A stretch of DNA of 64,000 bases from Agromyces subbeticus DSM 16689 (GTDB taxonomy: Bacteria; Actinomycetota; Actinomycetes; Actinomycetales; Microbacteriaceae), in the NCBI RefSeq assembly GCF_000421565.1, contig NZ_ATXG01000009.1, forward strand, positions 1-64,000, written 5' to 3'. Shown here in pieces: positions 52,483 to 64,000 of this stretch. The notes below the pieces were generated by a model. The model was not told the origin of the DNA and did not search any database. It was given only the letters and a program-made list of their open reading frames with translations. Made by a program: the position numbers and the translations under genes. Position 1 is the first letter of the stretch; each line of letters opens with the position of its first letter.

Positions 52483-53298
52483 TCAGGAGCCGGCGCGCCG
52501 CAGCAACGCCGCGGCCTGGCGCAGCACCGGGGCATCGACCATGTCGCCGCGGAATGCGAAGACCCCAGGGTGCTGCGCCGCCGCGTCGGTGACCGCCCGC
52601 GCCCACTCGAGCTGCTCGGGGTCGGGCCGGTACGCCGCGCGCACGACCTCGACCTGGGTCGGGTGGATGCACGCCGTTGCCGCGAAGCCGACCGCCACGG
52701 CGTCTTCGGCCTCGGCTCGGAGTCCGTCGACGTCGCCGATCTCGAGGTGCACGGTGTCGATCGCGGCGATGTCGTGAGCGGCCGCCGCGAGACACACCTG
52801 GGACCTGGCGTGCCTCGCGACGTCGCGGTAGCGGCCGTCTGGGAATCGGCTCGAGGAGCCGCCGAGCGACGCCACGAGGTCTTCGGCGCCCCACATGAGC
52901 GCCGACACGTTCGGGAGGGCGGCGACCTCGCTCGAGGCGAGCACGCCGCGCGCGGTCTCGCACAGCGCGATGACCTCGAACTCGGCGAGACCGACGAGAT
53001 CGGCCGTGCCCTCGCACTTCGCGAGCATCACGGTGCGGTAGTCGGAACGGGCGATTGCCGCCAGGTCGTCGGCGAGGTGCGGGCCCGAGGCGGGATTCAC
53101 CCGCACGATCACGCGCTCGGGGTCGAGCGGGGTCTCGAGCAGGGCGCGCCGCGCGTCGTGCTTCGCATCGTCGCCGACGGCGTCTTCGAGGTCGAGGATC
53201 ACGGCGTCGGCGCGCTCGAGCGCCTTCGCGTAGCGATCGGGTCGGTCGGCCGGGCAGAAGAGCAGCGCGGGGCCGAACCGGAACGGCGGATGCGTCAT
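52483..53298 (-). CDS. HpcH/HpaI-CitE family beta-hydroxyacyl-CoA lyase
   Basis: A 271-residue CitE-like (beta/alpha)8 lyase: LLFCPADRPDRYAKALERADAVILDLEDAV, VIVRVN, CETARGVLASSEVAALPNVSALMWGAEDL and ACIHPTQVEVV. The mycobacterial counterpart in the same gene order (Rv2498c) is reported as a lyase used in leucine and itaconate breakdown, making a final HMG-CoA or citramalyl-CoA cleavage plausible here. ATG overlaps the MaoC stop. Last gene of the operon. Confidence 0.9.
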   Translation of the reverse strand: MTHPPFRFGPALLFCPADRPDRYAKALERADAVILDLEDAVGDDAKHDARRALLETPLDPERVIVRVNPASGPHLADDLAAIARSDYRTVMLAKCEGTADLVGLAEFEVIALCETARGVLASSEVAALPNVSALMWGAEDLVASLGGSSSRFPDGRYRDVARHARSQVCLAAAAHDIAAIDTVHLEIGDVDGLRAEAEDAVAVGFAATACIHPTQVEVVRAAYRPDPEQLEWARAVTDAAAQHPGVFAFRGDMVDAPVLRQAAALLRRAGS

Positions 53299-53846
53299 CC
53301 GTTCGTCTCGATGCCCGCTGCCCGCTCGGCCCGCTCGGCGACGGCGATCGCGGCCTGGCGTTCGCCCGCCTCGCGGAACCACACGAGCACCGATCGCGTC
53401 GCGTGAGCGACCTCGACGCCGTCTTGATTGCGGCCGGTGTGCCGCAGTGTCACGATGCCCTGCCCGGGCCGCGACGCCGATGGCCGCGTCTCGAGCACGG
53501 TGCTCTCGCTGTAGAGCGTGTCGCCGTGGAACAGCGGCGCCGGGAACGCGACCTCGGTGAAGCCGAGGTTCGCGACGATCGTGCCCTGCGTGAGCTGGGC
53601 GACGGATGCCCCGACGATCGTCGCGAGGGTGAACATCGAGTTCACGAGCCGCTGGCCGAACGGCTGGGTGGCCGACCATGCCGCATCGAGGTGCAGCGCC
53701 TGCGTGTTCATCGTGAGCGTCGTGAAGAGCACATTGTCGGTCTCGGTGACCGTGCGCCCCGGCCGGTGCAGGTAGCGCGTGCCGGGTTCGAACTCCTCGA
53801 ACCAGAGACCGCGCTCCACGACCTCGCGCATCGGGACATCCGTCAT
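53295..53846 (-). CDS. MaoC family dehydratase
   Basis: A 183-residue hot-dog hydratase: FEEFEPGTRYLHRPGRTVTETDNVLFTTLTMNTQALHLDAAWS (catalytic Asp/His region), FGQRLVNSMFTLATIVG and FHGDTLYSESTV. By position it would hydrate 3-methylglutaconyl-CoA (or mesaconyl/itaconyl-CoA) ahead of the CitE-like lyase. GGAGGT precedes the ATG. 9 bp after the dehydrogenase. Confidence 0.92.
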   Translation of the reverse strand: MTDVPMREVVERGLWFEEFEPGTRYLHRPGRTVTETDNVLFTTLTMNTQALHLDAAWSATQPFGQRLVNSMFTLATIVGASVAQLTQGTIVANLGFTEVAFPAPLFHGDTLYSESTVLETRPSASRPGQGIVTLRHTGRNQDGVEVAHATRSVLVWFREAGERQAAIAVAERAERAAGIETNG

Positions 53847-53855
53847 GGCGACCTC

Positions 53856-55028
53856 CTACTCGAGCCCGAGCTCACGTGCGATGACCATGAGCTGCACTTC
53901 GTTGGTGCCCTCGCCGATCTCGAGGATCTTCGAGTCACGGTAGTGCCTCGCCACGAGACTCTCGTTCATGAACCCCATGCCGCCGAAGATCTGCGTGGCA
54001 TCGCGTGCGTTGAGCATGGCGGCATCGCTCGCGACGAGCTTCGCGATCGCGGCCTCCTTCTTGAACGGGAGGCCGGCGTCGACGCGACGGGCCGCGTCGT
54101 GCCAGGCGAGCCGGGAGGTGTGCACGCGCGCCTGCATCTGGGCGATCGTGAACGCGATGTACTGGTGCGAGGCGATGGGCACTCCGAAGACGTTGCGCGT
54201 CTTGGCGTAGGCGACGGCCTCGTCGAGGCAGCCCTGCGCGGCGCCCGTCGCGAGGGCGGCGATCGCCACGCGCCCCTCGTCGAGCGCACGAAGGAAGTTG
54301 GCGAAGCCGCGGCCCCGCTCGCCGAGCAGGTTGGCAGCGGGCACCCGCACGTCGTCGAACGTGAGCGGGTGCGTGTCCGAGGCGCGCCACCCCGACTTGT
54401 CGTACCCCGGCGCAACGGTGAATCCGGGAGTGCCGTTCGGCACGATGATCGTCGACAGCTCCTTGGAGACCGAGCCGTCGGGGCGTGTGCGCTCCCCCGT
54501 CACGGCGGTCACGGTGACGAAGCTCGTGATCGGTGTGCCCGAGTTGGTGATGAACTGCTTCGAGCCGTTGACGACCCACTCGTCGCCGTCGAGCACTGCC
54601 GTCGTGCGGGTGGCGCCGGCATCGGAACCCGCCTCCGATTCCGTGAGGCCGAACCCGGCGAGCGCGCGACCGGCGACGAGGTCGGGCAGGCGCTCGGCCT
54701 TCTGCTCCTCGGTTCCATGACGGAAGATCGGCATGGCTCCCAGCCCGACGGCGGCCTCGAGGGTGATCGCGATCGACTGGTCGACGCGGGCGAGGGCTTC
54801 GATCGCGAGTCCGAGCGCCATGTAGTCGCCGCCCTGGCCACCGTACTGCTCGGGGAACGGGAGGCCGAAGAGGCCGAGTTCGCCCATCTGGGCGACGACG
54901 TCCATCGACAGGGTGTGGCTGCGGTCGGCCTCGTACGACTGCGGAGCGACCACGGTGTCGGCGAACTCGCAGACCATGTCGTACAGCTGGACTTCCTCGG
55001 GACTCAGGTCGTGCATCATGTTCCTCAT
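53856..55028 (-). CDS. acyl-CoA dehydrogenase (probable isovaleryl-CoA dehydrogenase)
   Basis: A 390-residue FAD enzyme with AGFGLTESEAGSDAGATRTTAV (acyl/FAD site), FITNSGTP, GGMGFMNESLVARHYRDSKILEIGEGTNEVQ. E373 in EGT is the SCAD-type catalytic position; a second Glu in ALDEGRVAIAA sits near the G-helix position used by isovaleryl-CoA dehydrogenase. Leucine-pathway role is inferred from the neighbouring carboxylase, MaoC and CitE genes, the order of fadE19 in mycobacteria. ATG overlaps the carboxylase stop. Confidence 0.92.
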   Translation of the reverse strand: MRNMMHDLSPEEVQLYDMVCEFADTVVAPQSYEADRSHTLSMDVVAQMGELGLFGLPFPEQYGGQGGDYMALGLAIEALARVDQSIAITLEAAVGLGAMPIFRHGTEEQKAERLPDLVAGRALAGFGLTESEAGSDAGATRTTAVLDGDEWVVNGSKQFITNSGTPITSFVTVTAVTGERTRPDGSVSKELSTIIVPNGTPGFTVAPGYDKSGWRASDTHPLTFDDVRVPAANLLGERGRGFANFLRALDEGRVAIAALATGAAQGCLDEAVAYAKTRNVFGVPIASHQYIAFTIAQMQARVHTSRLAWHDAARRVDAGLPFKKEAAIAKLVASDAAMLNARDATQIFGGMGFMNESLVARHYRDSKILEIGEGTNEVQLMVIARELGLE

Positions 55029-57136
55029 TCCTGGTGGGACGGGTGTGCGACGGCGCCCTCGTGAGGGCCGTCGGTCGACGTGGGCTCGGATGCCGCGGGG
55101 CGCGGCTCGATGCGTGCGACCGCCTGGTCACGGGCGACGAGGTCGCCGACGGCGACGCTGAGCCGCACCGTGCCATCGACCGCGGCGACGACGCGGTGCT
55201 CCATCTTCATCGCCTCGATCGCGACGATGGCGTCGCCGGCCTCGACGGCGTCGCCGTCGACGGCGAACACAGCGGTGACCGTGCCCGGCATCGGGGCGCG
55301 CAGCTCGGGGTCGGCGGCGAGGCCGCCCCCGCGCTCGGCCGCGGCGCGACGCTGCTCAGCGTGCGTGCGGCGGTCGATGCGGATGAGCGCGGCCGATGCG
55401 CCGTCGTGATGCACCCAGACGGCACCGTCGGCGCCGACCCGCACGACGGTGTCGCCGGCATCGGCATCGGCGTCTGCGCCGACGGAGACCACGTCGTCGG
55501 GCGGCGTCACGACTGGTCGAACGTCGAGCGGATGATCGCGCGGAGCGAGCAGCACCGCGCTGCGGCGCACGGCGCCCGGACGCCAGCCCGTGGCCGACTG
55601 CCAGGTGCTCGGCCCGGCGGCGGTCGACGCAGCGGAGGTCGACGAGCGCCGGCCGATGGTCTGTTCTGACACGAAGGCGCGCGCGGCCGCGTCGAGGAGC
55701 GCGGGCGGCAGCTCGACATGGTCGACCTCGGGCATGCGGTCGATGAGTCCGGTGTCGAGGTCACCCGAGCGCACGGCGGGGTCGGCGAGCAGGCGCCGGA
55801 GGAAGGCGATGTTCGTATCGACGCCGAGCACGACGGTGTCGGCGAGCGCGCGATCGAGTCGCTCGAGTGCCTGCGCACGGTCGGTGCCGAACGCGATGAC
55901 CTTGGCGATCATCGGGTCGTAGTGGGCGGTGATCTCGAGCCCCTCGTCGATTCCAGCATCGACGCGAACCCCCTCGCCGACCGGAGCTCGCCATGCAAGC
56001 ACCTCACCCGTCGATGGAAGGAAGCCGCGGTGCGGCGTCTCGGCGTAGACACGTGCCTCGATCGCGTGCCCGCGGAGTTCGATCTGCTCCTGGGTCAGGG
56101 CGAGCGGCTCGCCCGCGGCGATGCGGAGCTGCTGTTCCACGAGGTCGACGCCGGTGACGAGCTCGGTGACGGGGTGCTCGACCTGGAGCCGGGTGTTCAT
56201 CTCGATGAAGAAGAACTCGTCGGGGGCGACATCCGACACCAGGAACTCGACCGTGCCTGCCCCGAGGTAGTCGACACTGCGGGCGGCATCGCACGCGGCC
56301 TGCCCGATGCGCGCACGAGTCGCGGCATCGAGCAGCGGTGAGGGCGACTCCTCGATGACCTTCTGGTGTCGGCGCTGCAGGGAGCATTCGCGCTCGCCGA
56401 GGTGCACGACGGTGCCGTGCGCATCGGCGAGCACCTGCACCTCGATGTGACGCGGTCGCTCGATGAGCCGCTCGATCAGCAGCGTGTCGTCGCCGAAGGC
56501 GGCGAGTGCGATGCGCCGTGCGGCCGGCAGGGCAGCCTCGAGTTCGGCGGCATCGCGGGCGATCTGCATGCCCTTGCCTCCGCCACCGGCAGAGGGCTTC
56601 ACGAGCACCGGGAAGCCGACGGCTCCGGCGGCCTCGAGCAGCGCAGCATCATCGAGGGTCGGGTCTGCCACTCCAGGTACCGTCGGCACCCCCGACCGTT
56701 CGACGTGGTGTTTCGCGCGGATCTTGTCGCCCATGACCTCGAGCGCCTCGATGCCAGGGCCCACGAACACGAGCCCCGCGTCTCGGCAGGCCCGCGCGAA
56801 CCCGGCGTGCTCCGAGAGGAAGCCGTAGCCGGGGTGCACCGCCTCGGCGCCCGTCTCGAGGGCGGCGGCGATGATGCGCTCGGGGTCGAGATAGCTCTCG
56901 GTCGCGGGCGCCGGCCCGATGCGCACGGCCTCGTCGGCGAGCCGTACGTGCGGCGCGTCGGCGTCGGCATCGGAGTACACGGCGATCGAGCGGATGCCGA
57001 GGCGCCGCAGCGTTCGGATGACGCGAACGGCGATCTCGCCGCGGTTGGCGACGAGCACCCGGTCGAAGGGGCGCGGCGCAGAACTGCGCGGCTTCGGCCC
57101 CGATGCACGATCGGGCGAGCTCTTGAGCGTGACCAT
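55025..57136 (-). CDS. acyl-CoA carboxylase alpha chain (biotin carboxylase plus BCCP; methylcrotonyl-CoA type)
   Basis: A 703-residue fusion. The biotin carboxylase part (about 24-470: FDRVLVANRGEIAVRVIRTLRRLG, ATP-grasp GGGGKGMQIARDA, EMNTRLQVEHPVTE) is joined through an Ala/Asp-rich linker to a C-terminal biotinyl domain with AIEAMKMEHRV. With the carboxyltransferase at 62173 it would carboxylate 3-methylcrotonyl-CoA. ATG at 57136 with GAGAGG upstream. Operators at 57173 and 57199 stand just before it. Confidence 0.94.
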   Translation of the reverse strand: MVTLKSSPDRASGPKPRSSAPRPFDRVLVANRGEIAVRVIRTLRRLGIRSIAVYSDADADAPHVRLADEAVRIGPAPATESYLDPERIIAAALETGAEAVHPGYGFLSEHAGFARACRDAGLVFVGPGIEALEVMGDKIRAKHHVERSGVPTVPGVADPTLDDAALLEAAGAVGFPVLVKPSAGGGGKGMQIARDAAELEAALPAARRIALAAFGDDTLLIERLIERPRHIEVQVLADAHGTVVHLGERECSLQRRHQKVIEESPSPLLDAATRARIGQAACDAARSVDYLGAGTVEFLVSDVAPDEFFFIEMNTRLQVEHPVTELVTGVDLVEQQLRIAAGEPLALTQEQIELRGHAIEARVYAETPHRGFLPSTGEVLAWRAPVGEGVRVDAGIDEGLEITAHYDPMIAKVIAFGTDRAQALERLDRALADTVVLGVDTNIAFLRRLLADPAVRSGDLDTGLIDRMPEVDHVELPPALLDAAARAFVSEQTIGRRSSTSAASTAAGPSTWQSATGWRPGAVRRSAVLLAPRDHPLDVRPVVTPPDDVVSVGADADADAGDTVVRVGADGAVWVHHDGASAALIRIDRRTHAEQRRAAAERGGGLAADPELRAPMPGTVTAVFAVDGDAVEAGDAIVAIEAMKMEHRVVAAVDGTVRLSVAVGDLVARDQAVARIEPRPAASEPTSTDGPHEGAVAHPSHQE

Positions 57137-57172
57137 CCGCGCCTCTCTGCGACGAAGTCCGCGCGCCATCCA

Positions 57173-57214
57173 GTTAGCGCGCACTAACTGGAATATACGT
57201 TAGCGGTCGCTAAC
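57173..57214. promoter_or_regulatory. paired TetR-type operators, site set A
   Basis: GTTAGCG-CG-CACTAAC (57173-57188) and the perfect palindrome GTTAGCG-GT-CGCTAAC (57199-57214), centres 26 bp apart, stand 37-78 bp upstream of the carboxylase start. The same dual arrangement occurs at 60698-60739 and 63837-63880. Confidence 0.85.
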
Positions 57215-57243
57215 TGAAATGACAAGCATCGGCCGAGGCGCAG

Positions 57244-58884
57244 CTACCGGCCGACCTTGCCGAACAGCGCCGCGATCGGGGCGAGCACCGTGGGCCGAGC
57301 CGCGACCCACGCCGCCGCGATCGCCACGAGCGACGCGACGAAGATCCAGAAGCCCAGCCAGTCATCGGCGTCGCGAGCCGCGTACATGTGATTCAGGTTG
57401 CGCAGCAGCCCCGTCGTGAACACCAGCACCACGTGCACCACGATGAAGGCGACGAAGTACAGCATCACCGGGAAGTGCACGGCGCGCGCCCACTCGACGG
57501 GGTAGATGCGGTTGAGCGTGGTCGCCTGCTTCGGCCACAACCCCGACATGCGCACCCCGGTCAGCGCGGCGAGCGGGGCCGCGATGAAGATCGTCGCGAA
57601 GTAGGCGAGCACCTGCAGGCTGTTGTAATTGACCCAGCCGTTCTCGAGCGGCCACTCGAGCGACAGGTACTGCAGACCCGCCGAGATCGCGTTCGGCAGG
57701 TACTCCCAACTCGTCGGCACGACGCGCATCCACTGCCCGGTCGCGAACAGGAGCACGACGAAGACGAGGCCGTTCACGAGCCACAGGATGTCGAGCGCCT
57801 GGTGGAACCACAGCGTCAGGCTGATCTTGCCCCGCCCGTTCTTCGACCATCGCGGCGTCCAGTAGGCCGCCGGCCGCTTCTCGGCGCGCACCTGAAGGCC
57901 CGAGCGGATGATGAGCACGATCAGGAAGGCGTTGAAGAAGTGCTGCCAGCCGAGCCAGGCCGGCAGCCCCACCGGCGCGTTCTGCGGCAGGTGCGTCTCG
58001 CCGGGGTAGCTCGCGAGGAAGTCCTGCATGAAGTCCAGCCCGATGAACCACCGCGTGAGCTGCACGACGATGGTCGCGGCGCCGATGATCGCGAGTACAC
58101 CGACGACGGATGCCCCGGCCCACTGCTTCGGCGAGAGCGGGCCACGGCGCGTGGGAGCGGATGGAGGGAGCACGCTCGCCGGAGCCGCCGTCGTAGTGGC
58201 GGGAGACGGCGCCTTCGGTGTCGGGAGCGGCCCCGGTGCAGCGGCCGCCGGTGCAGCCGCTGCGGCGGGTGCAGGGGCCGCGGCGTTGGCAGGGGCAGCG
58301 GCTGTGGCAGGTGGTGCTGCCGCTGCTGCTGCGACAGCCCCGGGGATCGTCGGCAACGGTGTCGCAGCTTCGACCGGCGCCGGCGATGCTGTGGCCGGCA
58401 CGACTCTCGCGGCCGGCCAGGGGTCTCCCCCGACGACCCGCGGCAGCCCGCGGCGAACCGCGCGCGCGTGCGGCGTGCCGGGCGCGGTAGCGGGTGCCGA
58501 GGGCACGGCCGTCGGTTCCGCACCGGCGGACGCGCCGGTCGATCGGTCGGGACCACTCGGCGGTGCCGCGACGTCAGCCGCGACATCCGTGACCTCGACA
58601 CCAGCGGGAAGCGCCTCACCGGCAGGCGGCCATGCCTCACCGCCCGCGACCCGCGGAAGCCCCCTGCGAACGCTCGATGCGGGCGCCACACCCGCGGAGG
58701 TCGCTGGTGTGGCCGGAGCCGTCACTGCGGCAACCGGAGCCGAGGCAGCTCGCGCCGCTTCCGCAGGAGCAGGAGATGCAGCTGCAGCTGCAGGGATCTC
58801 GGGCGCCTCACCGGCAGGCGGCCAGGCAGCACCGCCGCGCTCGCGAGGAAGTCCGCGGCGGAGGTTCCGCGCGTGAGCGGCCAC
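57244..58884 (-). CDS. cytochrome b561-like membrane protein with N-terminal RRGLPR repeats, in etf operon
   Basis: A 546-residue protein. The C-terminal part (about 270-546) has five or six membrane segments with histidines suited to haem ligation ([38 protein letters not shown]), like cytochrome b/b561 subunits of dehydrogenases. The first 260 residues are an Ala/Pro-rich tail with three RRGLPRxxGGxxWP units (starting near residues 9, 73 and 143). GTG start 3 nt after etfA. It may take electrons from ETF to quinone; this is inference. Confidence 0.78.
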
Positions 58885-58887
58885 TGG

Positions 58888-59874
58888 TCACCGCTTCCGC
58901 TCGGCGAGGGCGCTGACCAATTGCGGCACGACGGTGAAGACATCGCCGACGATGCCGAGATCGGCGACCTCGAAGATCGGCGCGTCGGGGTCTTTGTTCA
59001 CGGCGATGATGTGCTTGGCCGTCTGCATGCCGGCACGGTGCTGGATCGCGCCGGAGATGCCGAGCGCGATGTAGAGCTGCGGTGAGACCGAGACGCCGGT
59101 CTGCCCCACTTGATGGCTCGCCGGAATGTAGCCGGCGTCGACCGCGGCGCGTGATGCACCGACCGCGGCGCCGAGCGCGTCGGCGAGCTCTTCGACGAGC
59201 GCGAACTGCTCGGCCGAACCGAGGCCGCGGCCGCCGGAGACGACGCGCTTCGCCCCGCGCAGTTCGGGCCGGCTCGACGTCTCGGCAACGGCTTCGACCG
59301 ACTCGATGACCGCTGACGCCGCGCCCGAGGCCGACACCTCGAGCGACTCGAGCGCCACCGCCTGCGCCTCGGCACGCGCGTCGACGGCGCCCTGGCGCAC
59401 GGTCATGACGATCGGCCCGAAGGTGGCCGCGGAAGCCACCGTGTAGGCACCGCCGTAGACGGAGTGGTGGACGAGGATGCCCTCGTCGTCGCGGGAGACG
59501 CCGATGACGTCGACGGCGATCGCGGCGCCGGTGCGAGCGGCGAAGCGGCCAGCGACATCGCGGCCGTCGATCGAGTTCGGGATGAGCACGGCGTCGGGCG
59601 CGACGGCTGCCACGGCAGCTGCGAGGCAATCGACGTGCGGGATCGTGAGCTGCGTCCGCATCGAGTCCGTCTCGACGACGAGCACCCTCGCCGCCCCGCG
59701 CTCAGCAGCCTGTTCGGCGATCGTGCCTGCCTCGCCAGGAGCGACGACCGCGAGCGCGACCGGCGTGCCGATGAGGGCTGCGGCGCCGAGGAGGCCGGAA
59801 GCACTCGTTGCGAGTTCGCCGTTCGGCGAGGTCTCGAGGAGCACGAGGATCGAATCCGCGGGGTGGTCGGGCAT
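58888..59874 (-). CDS. etfA: electron transfer flavoprotein alpha subunit
   Basis: A 328-residue ETF alpha carrying FAD: C-terminal [73 protein letters not shown], then [28 protein letters not shown] precedes the ATG, 10 bp after etfB. Accepts electrons from acyl-CoA dehydrogenases such as the one at 53856. Confidence 0.96.
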
Positions 59875-59884
59875 GGTGTTCCTC

Positions 59885-60661
59885 TCAGACGAGTCGATTC
59901 TCGACCAGGTACTCGGCGATCCTCGTGCCGCCGTCGCCCTCATCGGTGACCTTCAGCCCTGCTGCACGCGCAGGCTTCTCGGCGATGGCGGTCATGATCG
60001 ACATGGCGACCGACAGGTCGTGCGGCTCAACCCCGAGATCAGCGGCGGTCAGCGTCTCGAAGGGCTTCTTCTTGGCCGCCATGATGCCCTTGAAGTTCGG
60101 GAACCGAGCGCTGGGCATCGCCTCGGTGATCGAGACCACGGCCGGCAGCGTGGCGCTGACCCGCATGGTGGCGTCATCGGCGCTGCGGGTGCCCGAGACC
60201 GAGTCGGCCGTGATCTCGATCGAGGAGAGGGCAGTCGCGTTGGGCACGTCGAGCAGCTCCGCCAGCATGGCGGGGAGCACGCCGCCGCTGCCGTCGGTCG
60301 ACAGGTTGCCGGCGATGACGAGGTCGAACCCCGTTCGGCGGATGGCGGCGGCGAGAACGCGGGCGGTGAGGCCGAGGTCGGCTCCGGCGAGGCCCGGATC
60401 GGCGATGTGCACGGCCGCGGCCGCTCCCATCGCGAGACCTTTGCGGATCGTCGGAGCGGCGGTCTCGGGCGCCATCGACATGACGACGACTTCTGCATCG
60501 TCATGAGCGTCGGCGAAGGAGAGCGCCACCTCGAGGGCGCGCTCACCGATCTCATCGAGCACCGCCTCGCTCGCAGCACGGTCGGCGAGCCCCGTCTCGA
60601 GGTCGAGCTTGCGGTCGCCGTAGGTGTCGGGGACCTCTTTCACGAGGACGATGATCTTCAT
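59885..60661 (-). CDS. etfB: electron transfer flavoprotein beta subunit
   Basis: A 258-residue ETF beta: MKIIVLVKEVPDTYGDRKLD, then ALSFADAHDDAEVVVMSMAPETAAPTIRKGLAMGA and the KGIMAAKKKPFETL recognition-loop region. First gene of etfB-etfA-cytochrome b. ATG at 60661 with a GAGAGCGG stretch upstream and two operators 37-78 bp upstream. Confidence 0.95.
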   Translation of the reverse strand: MKIIVLVKEVPDTYGDRKLDLETGLADRAASEAVLDEIGERALEVALSFADAHDDAEVVVMSMAPETAAPTIRKGLAMGAAAAVHIADPGLAGADLGLTARVLAAAIRRTGFDLVIAGNLSTDGSGGVLPAMLAELLDVPNATALSSIEITADSVSGTRSADDATMRVSATLPAVVSITEAMPSARFPNFKGIMAAKKKPFETLTAADLGVEPHDLSVAMSIMTAIAEKPARAAGLKVTDEGDGGTRIAEYLVENRLV

Positions 60662-60697
60662 CGGACCGCTCTCTGCGACAGTGCTCGCGGGCTCACA

Positions 60698-60739
60698 GTT
60701 AGTGTTCACTAACTGGATCCGATGTTAGTTGCGGCTAAC
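60698..60739. promoter_or_regulatory. paired TetR-type operators, site set B
   Basis: Perfect GTTAGTG-TT-CACTAAC (60698-60713) and GTTAGTT-GC-GGCTAAC (60724-60739), centres 26 bp apart, upstream of etfB. Same spacing and same distance to the start codon as site set A. Confidence 0.85.
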
Positions 60740-60779
60740 TGAATTGGCAAGAGCCGCGCGCCACGACGCGCGACGCGAC

Positions 60780-61343
60780 TCACGTGCCCCGCGCCAGAGC
60801 ACCCGTCAGCGTGTCGATGCCGAATTCGAACGCCCGATCGACCTCGCCGCCCAGGCGGAACGCACCCGAGAGCTCCATGCCGACGAATCCGTTGAGCCAG
60901 GCCGTCACCGTGCGGGCGGCGTCGAGCGCGCGCTCCTCGCCCGCGAGCTCGCCCGCGAGGCGGACCACCGTGGCGCTGGCCCGCGCGAGCGACTCGGGGT
61001 CGAGGTCGACGTCGACCCCCGGCGCGAAGACGAGTCCGAAGGCGACGGGCCGCTCGCGGGCGAACGATCGAGCCTCGCGCGCGAGCGCCGCCAGCGCTGC
61101 CCGCGGGTCGGGCTCGCCATCGACGGCCGCATCGAGGCGGTCGCCGAGATCGCGAACGGTCGCCTCTGCGACGAGGGCGATGAGTTCGCGCCGATTGCTG
61201 ACCCGCTTGTAGAGCGACGGGGCGCGCACGCCGACCCGATCAGCGACGGCTTGCATCGTGAGGCCGGAGAGGCCGGCCGATTCGAGCAGCGAGCGCCCGG
61301 CGTCGATGATCTCGGCGAGCGAGGTTCGGTGGGGTGTTGGCAT
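60780..61343 (-). CDS. TetR family regulator (WHG-domain type) divergent from MBL-fold gene
   Basis: A 187-residue repressor: IDAGRSLLESAGLSGLTMQAVADRVGVRAPSLYKRVSNRRELIALVAEATV, then a TetR C-terminal domain with AWLNGFVGMELSGAFRLGGEVDRAFEFGIDTL. GAGGA precedes the ATG. Twin palindromes at 61367 and 61389 lie between it and the divergent hydrolase gene, so it likely represses both. It is a different operator class from the GTTAG sites. Confidence 0.92.
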   Translation of the reverse strand: MPTPHRTSLAEIIDAGRSLLESAGLSGLTMQAVADRVGVRAPSLYKRVSNRRELIALVAEATVRDLGDRLDAAVDGEPDPRAALAALAREARSFARERPVAFGLVFAPGVDVDLDPESLARASATVVRLAGELAGEERALDAARTVTAWLNGFVGMELSGAFRLGGEVDRAFEFGIDTLTGALARGT

Positions 61344-61366
61344 CAGGTCCTCCGGCTCGAGCGTAA

Positions 61367-61403
61367 GCTATTGACCGTAGCCATGATAGCTATGTACCAT
61401 AGC
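61367..61403. promoter_or_regulatory. twin operators of the TetR / MBL pair
   Basis: GCTAT-TGACC-GTAGC (61367-61381) and GCTAT-GTACC-ATAGC (61389-61403), both 15 bp, have centres 22 bp apart, two helical turns. Confidence 0.75.
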
Positions 61404-61440
61404 CATCGGCACCCGACACCCCGCAACGGCAAGGACTCAG

Positions 61441-62166
61441 ATGAAGCTCGGCCCCTCCCTCCACCGCATCGGCTCCGACATCGTGGCCGTCTACCTCGTC
61501 GACACCGCAGCGGGCGTCACCGTGATCGACGCCGGCCTCGCCGGTCACTGGCCAGAACTCGTTGCCGAACTCGAGGCGATGGGCCGCTCGCTCGACGACG
61601 TCCGCGGCGTCGTGCTCACCCACGGCGACTCCGACCACATCGGTTTCGCCGAGCGGCTGCACCGTGAGCACGGTGTACCCGTCTACGTCCACGAGGCCGA
61701 CGCGGCGCGAGCTCGAGGCGAAGTGACCTCGAAGCCCGAGTGGGGTCGCCTCAAGATCGGCCCGACGGCTCGATTCCTCTGGTACGCGCTCCGCAAGAAC
61801 GGACTGCGCACGACGCCGCTCACCGAGGTCGTCGCCGTCCATGACGGCGACGTGCTCGACCTTCCCGGCACGCCGCGCGTGATCGGCCTCCCCGGTCACT
61901 CCCCCGGCAGCATCGCGATCCACGTGCCGGTCGCCGACGCCGTGTTCGTCGGCGACGCGCTCACCACGAGGCACGTGCTCACGGGCGCGAGCGGTCCACA
62001 GCCGGCGCCGTTCACCGACGACCCCGCCGAGGCGCTCACCTCGCTCCATCGGCTCGAGGGCATCGCCGCCACCTGGGTGCTGCCCGGGCACGGCGCGCCG
62101 TGGAATCGCGGCGTCGACGAAGCGGTGCGCGAGGTCAGCGCTGCGGCTGCGGCATCGGGATCGTGA
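61441..62166 (+). CDS. MBL fold metallo-hydrolase
   Basis: A 241-residue metallo-beta-lactamase-fold enzyme: VVLTHGDSDHIGFAERL (HxDxDH, with Asp for the second His of the usual HxHxDH), VIGLPGHSPGSIAIH, VFVGDAL and WVLPGHGAPW. AAGGA precedes the ATG. Controlled with the divergent TetR gene. Substrate unknown; the Gly-Asp variant of the metal motif is seen in some hydroxyacylglutathione-hydrolase-like enzymes. Confidence 0.88.
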   Translation: MKLGPSLHRIGSDIVAVYLVDTAAGVTVIDAGLAGHWPELVAELEAMGRSLDDVRGVVLTHGDSDHIGFAERLHREHGVPVYVHEADAARARGEVTSKPEWGRLKIGPTARFLWYALRKNGLRTTPLTEVVAVHDGDVLDLPGTPRVIGLPGHSPGSIAIHVPVADAVFVGDALTTRHVLTGASGPQPAPFTDDPAEALTSLHRLEGIAATWVLPGHGAPWNRGVDEAVREVSAAAAASGS

Positions 62167-62172
62167 GCCGGC

Positions 62173-63780
62173 TCACATCCTGAAGAGGCCGAACGCCGGC
62201 TCGGGCAGCGGCGTGCGGCTCGCGAGCTCGAGCGCCATCGCGAGCACCGTGCGGGTGTCGGCCGGATCGATGATGCCGTCGTCCCAGAGCCGTGCCGTCG
62301 AGTGGTACGGGCTGCCCTGGTCGTCGTACTGCGCCCGGATCGGGGCCTTGAACGCCTCGGCCGCGGCATCCGACCACTGTTCGCCCTTCACCGCGAGCTG
62401 GTCGCGCTTCACGGTCGAGAGCACGGATGCCGCCTGCTCGCCGCCCATCACCGAGATACGTGCGTTCGGCCACATCCAGAGGAACCGCGGTGAGTACGCA
62501 CGGCCGCACATCGAGTAGTTGCCGGCGCCGAACGACCCGCCGATCACGACGGTGAACTTGGGCACACGGGTGGTCGCCACAGCGGTGACCATCTTCGCGC
62601 CGTGCTTCGCGATGCCGCCCGCCTCGGCATCACGCCCCACCATGAAGCCCGAGATGTTCTGCAGGAAGACGAGCGGGATGCCCCGCTGGTCGCAGAGCTC
62701 GATGAAGTGGGCACCTTTCATGGCCGATTCGCTGAACAGCACACCGTTGTTCGCGACGATGCCGACCGGGTGCCCGTCGAGGTGCGCGAAGCCCGTGACG
62801 AGGGTGTCGCCGTACTCGCGCTTGAACTCGGCGAACTCGCTGCCGTCGACGAGCCGCGCGATCACCTCGCGCACGTCGTACGGCTCCTGCACGTCGACGG
62901 GCACCGCCGAGGTGAGGCCCGCCGGATCGACCGCCGGTGGTCGCGGCTCTCGCACTGCCCAGGCCCGCAGTTGCTGCTCGGGCAGCGTCGCGACCATGTC
63001 GCGCACGATCTCGAGGGCGTGCTCGTCGTCGTCGGCGAGGTGGTCGGTGACACCCGAGATGCGGGAATGCAGCTCGCCGCCGCCGAGCTCTTCAGGCGTG
63101 ACGACCTCGCCGATCGCCGCCTTCACGAGCGGCGGACCGCCGAGGAAGATCGTGCCCTGGTTGCGCACGATCACGGACTCGTCGCTCATCGCCGGCACAT
63201 AGGCGCCGCCGGCGGTGCACGAGCCGAGCACGGCGGCGAGTTGCGGGATGCGAGCGGCAGAGAGCTGCGCCTGGTTGAAGAAGATTCGACCGAAGTGCTC
63301 GCGATCGGGGAAGACCTCGTCTTGCAGCGGCAGGAACGCGCCGCCCGAGTCGACGAGGTAGATGCACGGCAAGCGGTGCTCCCTGGCGACCTCCTGCGCG
63401 CGCAGGTGCTTCTTCACCGTCATCGGATAGTACGTGCCGCCCTTCACGGTGGCGTCGTTGCACACCACCATGACCGGGCGCCCGTGCACGAGGCCGACGC
63501 CCGTGATGATGCCGGCACCGGGCGAGTCGCCGCCGTAGAGCCCGTCGGCCGCGAGCGGCGAGAGCTCGAGGAACGGGCTGCCCTCGTCGAGCAGACGGTC
63601 GACCCGGTCGCGCGGCAGCAGCTTGCCGCGTGCGACGTGACGCTCACGGCTGCCCTCGGGACCGCCGAGCGCTGCGGCTGCGACGCGGGATCGGAGTTCA
63701 GCGACGAGCTCGGCGAGTGCTGCGGCGTTCGTGCGTGCCCGCTCGCTCGAGGGATCGATGGCCGTGTGCAGGATTCCCAT
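62173..63780 (-). CDS. acyl-CoA carboxylase beta chain (methylcrotonyl-CoA carboxyltransferase type)
   Basis: A 535-residue carboxyltransferase: [83 protein letters not shown], then [31 protein letters not shown]. This pattern fits MCC-beta/AccD1 better than propionyl-CoA carboxylase. Partner of the alpha chain at 55025. Operators at 63837 and 63865 lie upstream. Convergent with the MBL gene. Confidence 0.93.
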
Positions 63781-63836
63781 CCGGTCCGCCTGTCTTCGTC
63801 GACGGCGCGCCCTCTTGTGAACGACGCCGGATTTCG

Positions 63837-63880
63837 GTTAGTGTGCACTAACTCGATCCCCGATGTTAGCGAGCACTCAC
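63837..63880. promoter_or_regulatory. paired TetR-type operators, site set C
   Basis: Perfect GTTAGTG-TG-CACTAAC (63837-63852) and GTTAGCG-AG-CACTCAC (63865-63880), centres 28 bp apart, between the carboxyltransferase and the divergent tetR. The second ends 4 bp before the tetR ATG. Confidence 0.83.
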
Positions 63881-63884
63881 CGAC

Positions 63885-64000
63885 ATGGCAAGCACACTCG
63901 GCGCGGCCGACCCGGTTCCCGCTTCGGCTTCAACTGCGGCTTCGGCTGCGGCTTCGGCTCCGGCCTCGGCTCCGACCCTCACCGAGCGCAGCCGTCAGAA
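63885..64000 (+). CDS. TetR family regulator, 5' part only (candidate repressor of the GTTAG regulon)
   Basis: The first 38 codons are visible. After an Ala/Ser-rich leader (coded by GCTTCG-like hexamers, about 63921-63972) the frame reaches PTLTERSRQ, the usual lead-in to a TetR helix-turn-helix. There is no Shine-Dalgarno. The gene runs off the window. Its place across operator set C makes it the prime candidate to bind the three paired sites. Low certainty because the DNA-binding domain itself is not seen. Confidence 0.6.
   Translation, partial: MASTLGAADPVPASASTAASAAASAPASAPTLTERSRQ

Follow-up and report, generated by a model that had tools for sequence, protein, structure and literature searches.

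The analysed window is a 64,000-nucleotide stretch of the genome of Agromyces subbeticus DSM 16689, one end of which (from position 52483 onwards) carries genes for leucine breakdown, an electron transfer flavoprotein (ETF) cassette and a divergent TetR-family gene, with six palindromic sites that very probably place them in a BkaR-type regulon. The analysis covered this window and the whole 4.3-Mb genome, 100 genomes of the host family and 60 Agromyces genomes.

The pathway genes lie on the minus strand. The carboxyltransferase gene accD (62173–63780) is of the methylcrotonyl-CoA carboxylase beta type according to domain and structure matches, with Mycobacterium tuberculosis AccD1 as its best match (866 bits). 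Further along, accA (55025–57136, with alternative in-frame starts up to 57184) encodes a biotin carboxylase with biotin carrier, for which the best matches were two chains named biotin carboxylase, followed by methylcrotonyl-CoA carboxylase alpha. It is followed by an acyl-CoA dehydrogenase gene (53856–55028; domain and structure matches), whose product is taken from its gene context to use isovaleryl-CoA, by a MaoC-like hydratase gene in the position of Rv2499c (53295–53846; domain match) and by a CitE-like lyase gene (52483–53319). The lyase is closest to structures of Rv2498c (structure matches, entry codes confirmed), an enzyme whose described substrate in the degradation of leucine is (R)-HMG-CoA (PMC6689899). 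This suggests that the locus encodes the conversion of isovaleryl-CoA to acetyl-CoA and acetoacetate. Between accA and accD, on the same strand, are etfB (59885–60661), etfA (58888–59871) and the membrane cytochrome b gene cytB (57244–58884); domain matches and a genome-wide ETF search identified etfBA as the only ETF pair of the host. The TetR gene, bkaR, is on the plus strand. As the preliminary description had placed it, it starts at 63885, and its reading frame of 225 aa leaves the window and ends at contig position 64562, although the true start codon may lie further in.

Three promoters each contain two copies of a 16-bp palindrome. These are operators O2 and O1 of the accA promoter (57173–57188 and 57199–57214), of the etfB promoter (60698–60713 and 60724–60739) and of the accD promoter (63837–63852, common to the divergent bkaR, and 63865–63880), all annotated without strand. 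A window scan with the consensus GTTAGNGNNCNCTAAC, in which mismatches were counted, recovered all six palindromes of the preliminary description, and their centre spacings of 26, 26 and 28 bp were borne out. The sites at 57173, 57199, 60698 and 63837 have no mismatches, the site at 63865 has one (GTTAGCGAGCACTCAC) and the site at 60724 has two (GTTAGTTGCGGCTAAC); the outer GTTA/TAAC is kept in five of the six. With up to three mismatches the 12 matches in the window are ordinary (100 shuffles: mean 8.7, with 15 reaching 12), and with up to two mismatches a search of the whole genome is uninformative (25 matches vs 62 for the reversed pattern). With no or one mismatch, each match in the whole genome was one of the six window sites. 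Exact GTTAG-N5-7-CTAAC gave five matches genome-wide, all at this locus (reversed control, 1); all five have the form GTTAG-N6-CTAAC and lie within 6.7 kb, and the chance of five random sites sharing one such stretch is about 3e-11. The earlier statement that the window holds no other copies is correct at up to one mismatch and extends to the genome; the further copies that had been predicted at bkd, mutase and acyl-CoA synthetase genes did not appear at that stringency anywhere in it.

The operators have a fixed position relative to the promoter elements. In the accA promoter, on the minus strand, O1 lies between a −35 element TTGTCA (57220–57225) and a −10 element TAACGT (57197–57202); the corresponding elements are TTGCCA (60745–60750) and TAACAT (60722–60727) for etfB, and TTGCCA (63886–63891) and TAACAT (63863–63868) for accD. 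All three promoters have a common register with a 17-bp spacer, which O1 occupies, its edge serving also as the −10 box; O2 follows 26–28 bp beyond O1, close to the probable transcription start. The same register was found when accD promoters of the family were aligned: in 23 of 27, five bases separate a −35-like hexamer from O1, and the last bases of O1 give TAACNT at −10 in 24 of 27 (counts that leave out the accD promoter of locus L106, where only O2 was recognised). An operator that fills the spacer and forms the −10 box points to occlusion of RNA polymerase as the likely mechanism of repression.

The TetR encoded beside accD resembles a characterized regulator. Among 136 PDB matches the M. 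tuberculosis protein Fad35R (4g12) scored best, with 185 bits across 205 residues, and the next unrelated entry reached 95 bits; the recognition helix is nearly identical between the two proteins. Fad35R is the protein named Rv2506 and BkaR in PMC3920632. Judged by these similarities, the Agromyces TetR is probably the orthologue of Rv2506/MSMEG_4718. BkaR matches at E 1e-25 or better were present in 28 of the 100 family genomes (29 matches altogether), and the helix motif SGPA(V/L)Y(R/K)HF was found in 27 of the 29, the patterns having missed L062 and L075.

Operator pairs and bkaR are linked across the family. At least one palindrome lies upstream of the TetR gene in 28 of the 29 BkaR loci and a pair 24–30 bp apart in 22, most commonly with a spacing of 26, and in 27 the gene divergent from it is accD. 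Within the genus, operator pairs were detected in 37 of the 60 Agromyces genomes, whereas the reversed control pattern matched in none, and all 30 pairs that were fetched, one per genome, were directly upstream of accA (21), accD (7) or etfB (2). The usual order in Agromyces is tetR2 (a second TetR gene), operator pair, accA, and genome G079 has the same arrangement. GTTAG-N6-CTAAC alone was rejected as a family marker because it is unspecific, with matches in 67 of 100 genomes; pairs and their position were used instead. Many of these family matches have the form GTTAGG....CCTAAC, which we take to resemble DtxR-type iron boxes.

The operators extend to the ETF cassette in part of the genus. 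Among 20 relatives with extended loci, seven (L196, L197, L198, L200, L203, L204 and L211) share with the window species an etfB-etfA-cytB cassette that lies between tetR2 and accA and is flanked by operators at either end; in front of etfB, four of the seven have a pair (two by a relaxed scan) and three a single recognisable site. Six others have the cassette after acyl-CoA dehydrogenase-maoC-citE, six have a less similar acyl-CoA dehydrogenase near it, and one contig was too short. One family genome (G006, L134) contains a second cluster, accA-maoC-citE-etfB-etfA-cytB, adjoining a copy of etfB-etfA-cytB in inverted orientation; GTTAG operators are absent there.

ETF scored over the Pfam cut-off, which was taken as presence, in 25 of the 100 family genomes. 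All 25 have cytB, compared with 21 of the 75 genomes without ETF (Fisher 2.9e-11). It is directly downstream in 32 of 35 ETF operons, the exceptions being those of G018 and G038 and one of the three operons in G064. Conversely, among the matches listed for the closest relatives of cytB (80 named loci), etfB-etfA is upstream in 73; of the remaining seven, six end at a contig edge and one (L282) lacks etfB-etfA. The only domain recognised in CytB is cytochrome b561/Ni-hydrogenase cytochrome b PF01292 (34.8 bits; cut-off 30.1), located in its C-terminal membrane half, and the protein may resemble FdnI and HyaC; a domain scan detected neither an Fe-S nor a CCG domain. The whole protein has no solved relative by sequence at E 0.01, and a Foldseek search with the membrane half gave no significant match. 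Its long Ala/Pro-rich N-terminal tail contains three RRGLPRxxGGxxWP repeats (repeat scan). At least one such unit occurs in 76 of the 80 closest relatives, among the matches listed; in the family, a loose pattern found RRGLPR repeats in seven of 30 loci, and several ETF-linked cytochromes are without them. The repeat is a possible ETF-docking motif.

Other exits for ETF electrons were sought. The ETF-QO domain Fer4_ETF_QO (PF05187) was absent from the host genome and from all 100 family genomes (control matches in three of 14 named genomes). No EtfD was recognised in the host genome via its CCG domain, a search confined to that genome and not made family-wide; the sole CCG protein there is an FAD-linked oxidase with FAD-oxidase and Fer4 domains. 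It is an evenly balanced proposal that cytB, as an FdnI-like diheme protein without Fe-S or flavin, represents an unrelated third class of ETF:menaquinone oxidoreductase in Micrococcales that would catch ETF by the repeats of a disordered N-terminal tail, and that a group of Agromyces species has put cytB and ETF under BkaR. A somewhat less probable alternative is that cytB serves another donor and ETF electrons exit by an unrecognised route. It would account for cytB paralogues without ETF (contig C6:83738 in the host, and the 21 ETF-less genomes above) and for the lack of a visible Fe-S relay in cytB, the known EtfD having Fe-S clusters between ETF and heme in its published description (PMC13083937). 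Furthermore, 17 of the 28 BkaR genomes (G079, with locus L106, and 16 others) have no ETF over the cut-off, so another acceptor is needed there. An acyl-CoA dehydrogenase is nevertheless present at the locus in 16 of the 17 (in G022 the contig ends too early); these genomes keep the pathway, and ETF is therefore no fixed part of it. What speaks against another donor is the position of cytB directly downstream of etfBA in nearly all ETF operons, the etfB-etfA genes upstream of most listed cytB loci (with six of the seven others cut by contig ends), and the absence of ETF-QO from the family together with the oxidase-like nature of the one CCG protein of the host. Among the papers listed in searches of the open-licence PMC literature, none dealt with an ETF–cytochrome b pairing, which is weak evidence of novelty.

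Several observations weigh against assigning the palindromes and all three units to BkaR. The frequent absence of ETF from BkaR genomes is one, and the score of the TetR against NCBIfam NF050111 (SACE_7040 family; 240.7 bits), below the cut-off of 250, is another. The published BkaR core, GTTA(N)T(N4)A(N)TAAC, is complete in only two of the six window sites, although inner positions also vary among mycobacterial BkaR sites reported as positive in electrophoretic mobility shift assays (PMC3920632). No site of operator type beyond the six was found at the bkd operon in the 26 kb scanned, whereas mycobacterial bkdABC is in the regulon; the Agromyces bkd genes may still be co-regulated in some other way. 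A palindrome at Rv0575c/Rv0576 that fits the earlier consensus exactly is described as unbound by M. tuberculosis BkaR (PMC3920632). In genome G060 (L163 7154–8508), two GTTAGTGAACACTAAC-type palindromes with a spacing of 26 bp lie between a divergent gene and a TetR gene unlike bkaR, and the genome has no BkaR match at 1e-25; here another regulator may use the same operator. The last two cases show that the motif alone is no proof of BkaR control. They also lend something to the view that the palindromes serve neither TetR but some third regulator, whose gene might lie elsewhere, while BkaR binds a different element. This is very unlikely, as the pairs track the bkaR/accD promoter through nearly all family loci and the operator published for BkaR matches them both in type of palindrome and in position. 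Also very unlikely is repression of the etfB and accA promoters by tetR2 (60780–61343), with BkaR restricted to accD: tetR2 adjoins the pair in many Agromyces loci and in G079, and a pair lies near it in G060 also, but it is the 3′ end of tetR2 and not its promoter that faces the pair, the divergent promoter between tetR2 and an MBL gene (61344–61440) has a different block (GCTATTG ... TAGCCAT ... GCTA(T/C)GTA ... TAGCC) in 21 of 21 aligned sequences, and most family members have their pairs at bkaR/accD, where no tetR2 match is adjacent. Given this conserved element of its own, tetR2 was set aside as the regulator.

Two further regulatory genes were observed in the neighbourhood. With the MBL gene, tetR2 forms a second small TetR-controlled pair around the 61344–61440 block. 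Adjoining the window, upstream of accD and on the same strand, is the bkd operon (contig C9, about 65458–69079), and divergent from it is an Lrp/AsnC-type gene (C9:69207–69704; L016:5708–6205), likely a separate regulator of the keto-acid dehydrogenase.

Taken together, we hold it to be highly probable that the window contains the Agromyces BkaR regulon, in which three units would be jointly repressed, a leucine-derived acyl-CoA would release BkaR, and ETF and cytB would pass electrons to menaquinone. The data show the sites, their register in the promoters, their conservation, the likeness of the TetR to BkaR and the linkage of the genes; binding, repression, start sites, ligand and electron path are inferred from these. 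A BkaR dimer would bind each 16-bp palindrome, and BkaR bound at O1, in the spacer, and at O2, near the transcript start, would shut RNA polymerase out. During leucine breakdown a pathway acyl-CoA would release it; the ligand is presumably of this kind, and the DNA binding of Fad35R has been reported to be weakened by palmitoyl-CoA and tetracycline. The units accD (probably with bkaR), accA-acyl-CoA dehydrogenase-maoC-citE and etfB-etfA-cytB would then come on together, ETF would reoxidise the acyl-CoA dehydrogenase, and cytB, most likely a diheme cytochrome b, would hand the electrons of ETF to menaquinone. The earlier reading of a regulator, its operators and a pathway from isovaleryl-CoA is supported in this interpretation and coincides with the mycobacterial BkaR regulon, which that reading had not named. 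The leucine regulon of BkaR, described in mycobacteria and close relatives, would thereby extend to the Agromyces family, in a form with a clear twin-operator design embedded in the promoters, and suggests a possible route for acyl-CoA electrons into respiration in Micrococcales that have ETF but not ETF-QO. The switch itself is known, and the reach of the operators to ETF and the cytochrome partner of ETF look new; the etfBA-cytochrome unit is the more novel element, the regulon being a known one that is new to this lineage and has gained a branch in it.

In the mycobacterial system (Rv2506/MSMEG_4718, Fad35R) there is likewise a divergent TetR with two 16-bp palindromes in the common promoter and a set of accD, accA, acyl-CoA dehydrogenase, hydratase and citE genes. 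As described in PMC3920632, BkaR binds its motif as a dimer, every species tested has two copies of the 16-bp core in its bkaR promoter, and deletion of bkaR derepresses the accD1-accA1-fadE19-hydratase-citE-bkdABC operon. The Agromyces locus has this gene content with operators, but accD and accA-dehydrogenase-maoC-citE are separate units; in a further departure from mycobacteria, etfBA-cytB is added as a third unit, every unit has an operator pair to itself, and the bkd operon is without an operator. No thiolase, scoAB or fadD35 target was seen at the present locus. In another family member (G028, L108 5959–7418), a CoA-transferase gene (PF01144) lies between maoC and acyl-CoA dehydrogenase, in keeping with the use of acetoacetate and with scoAB being a target of BkaR in mycobacteria; L109 and L110 have similar gaps, the domain scan having covered L108.

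The proposed role of cytB is shared with two known proteins. With ETF-QO, of the mitochondrial/proteobacterial type, it has only this role in common. With the ETF:menaquinone oxidoreductase EtfD (Rv0338c, MSMEG_0690) it also shares membrane b heme and a repeat-bearing tail, but cytB carries its tail at the N-terminus and shows neither an Fe-S nor a CCG domain. Compared with FdnI of formate dehydrogenase N and HyaC of hydrogenase 1, cytB differs in its long repeat-bearing tail and in its partner, which would be a soluble flavoprotein. The tail of EtfD is disordered, contains repeats and is predicted by the authors of PMC13083937 to contact ETF; disordered repeat tails in both EtfD and the unrelated cytB would hint that the two proteins capture ETF by similar means.

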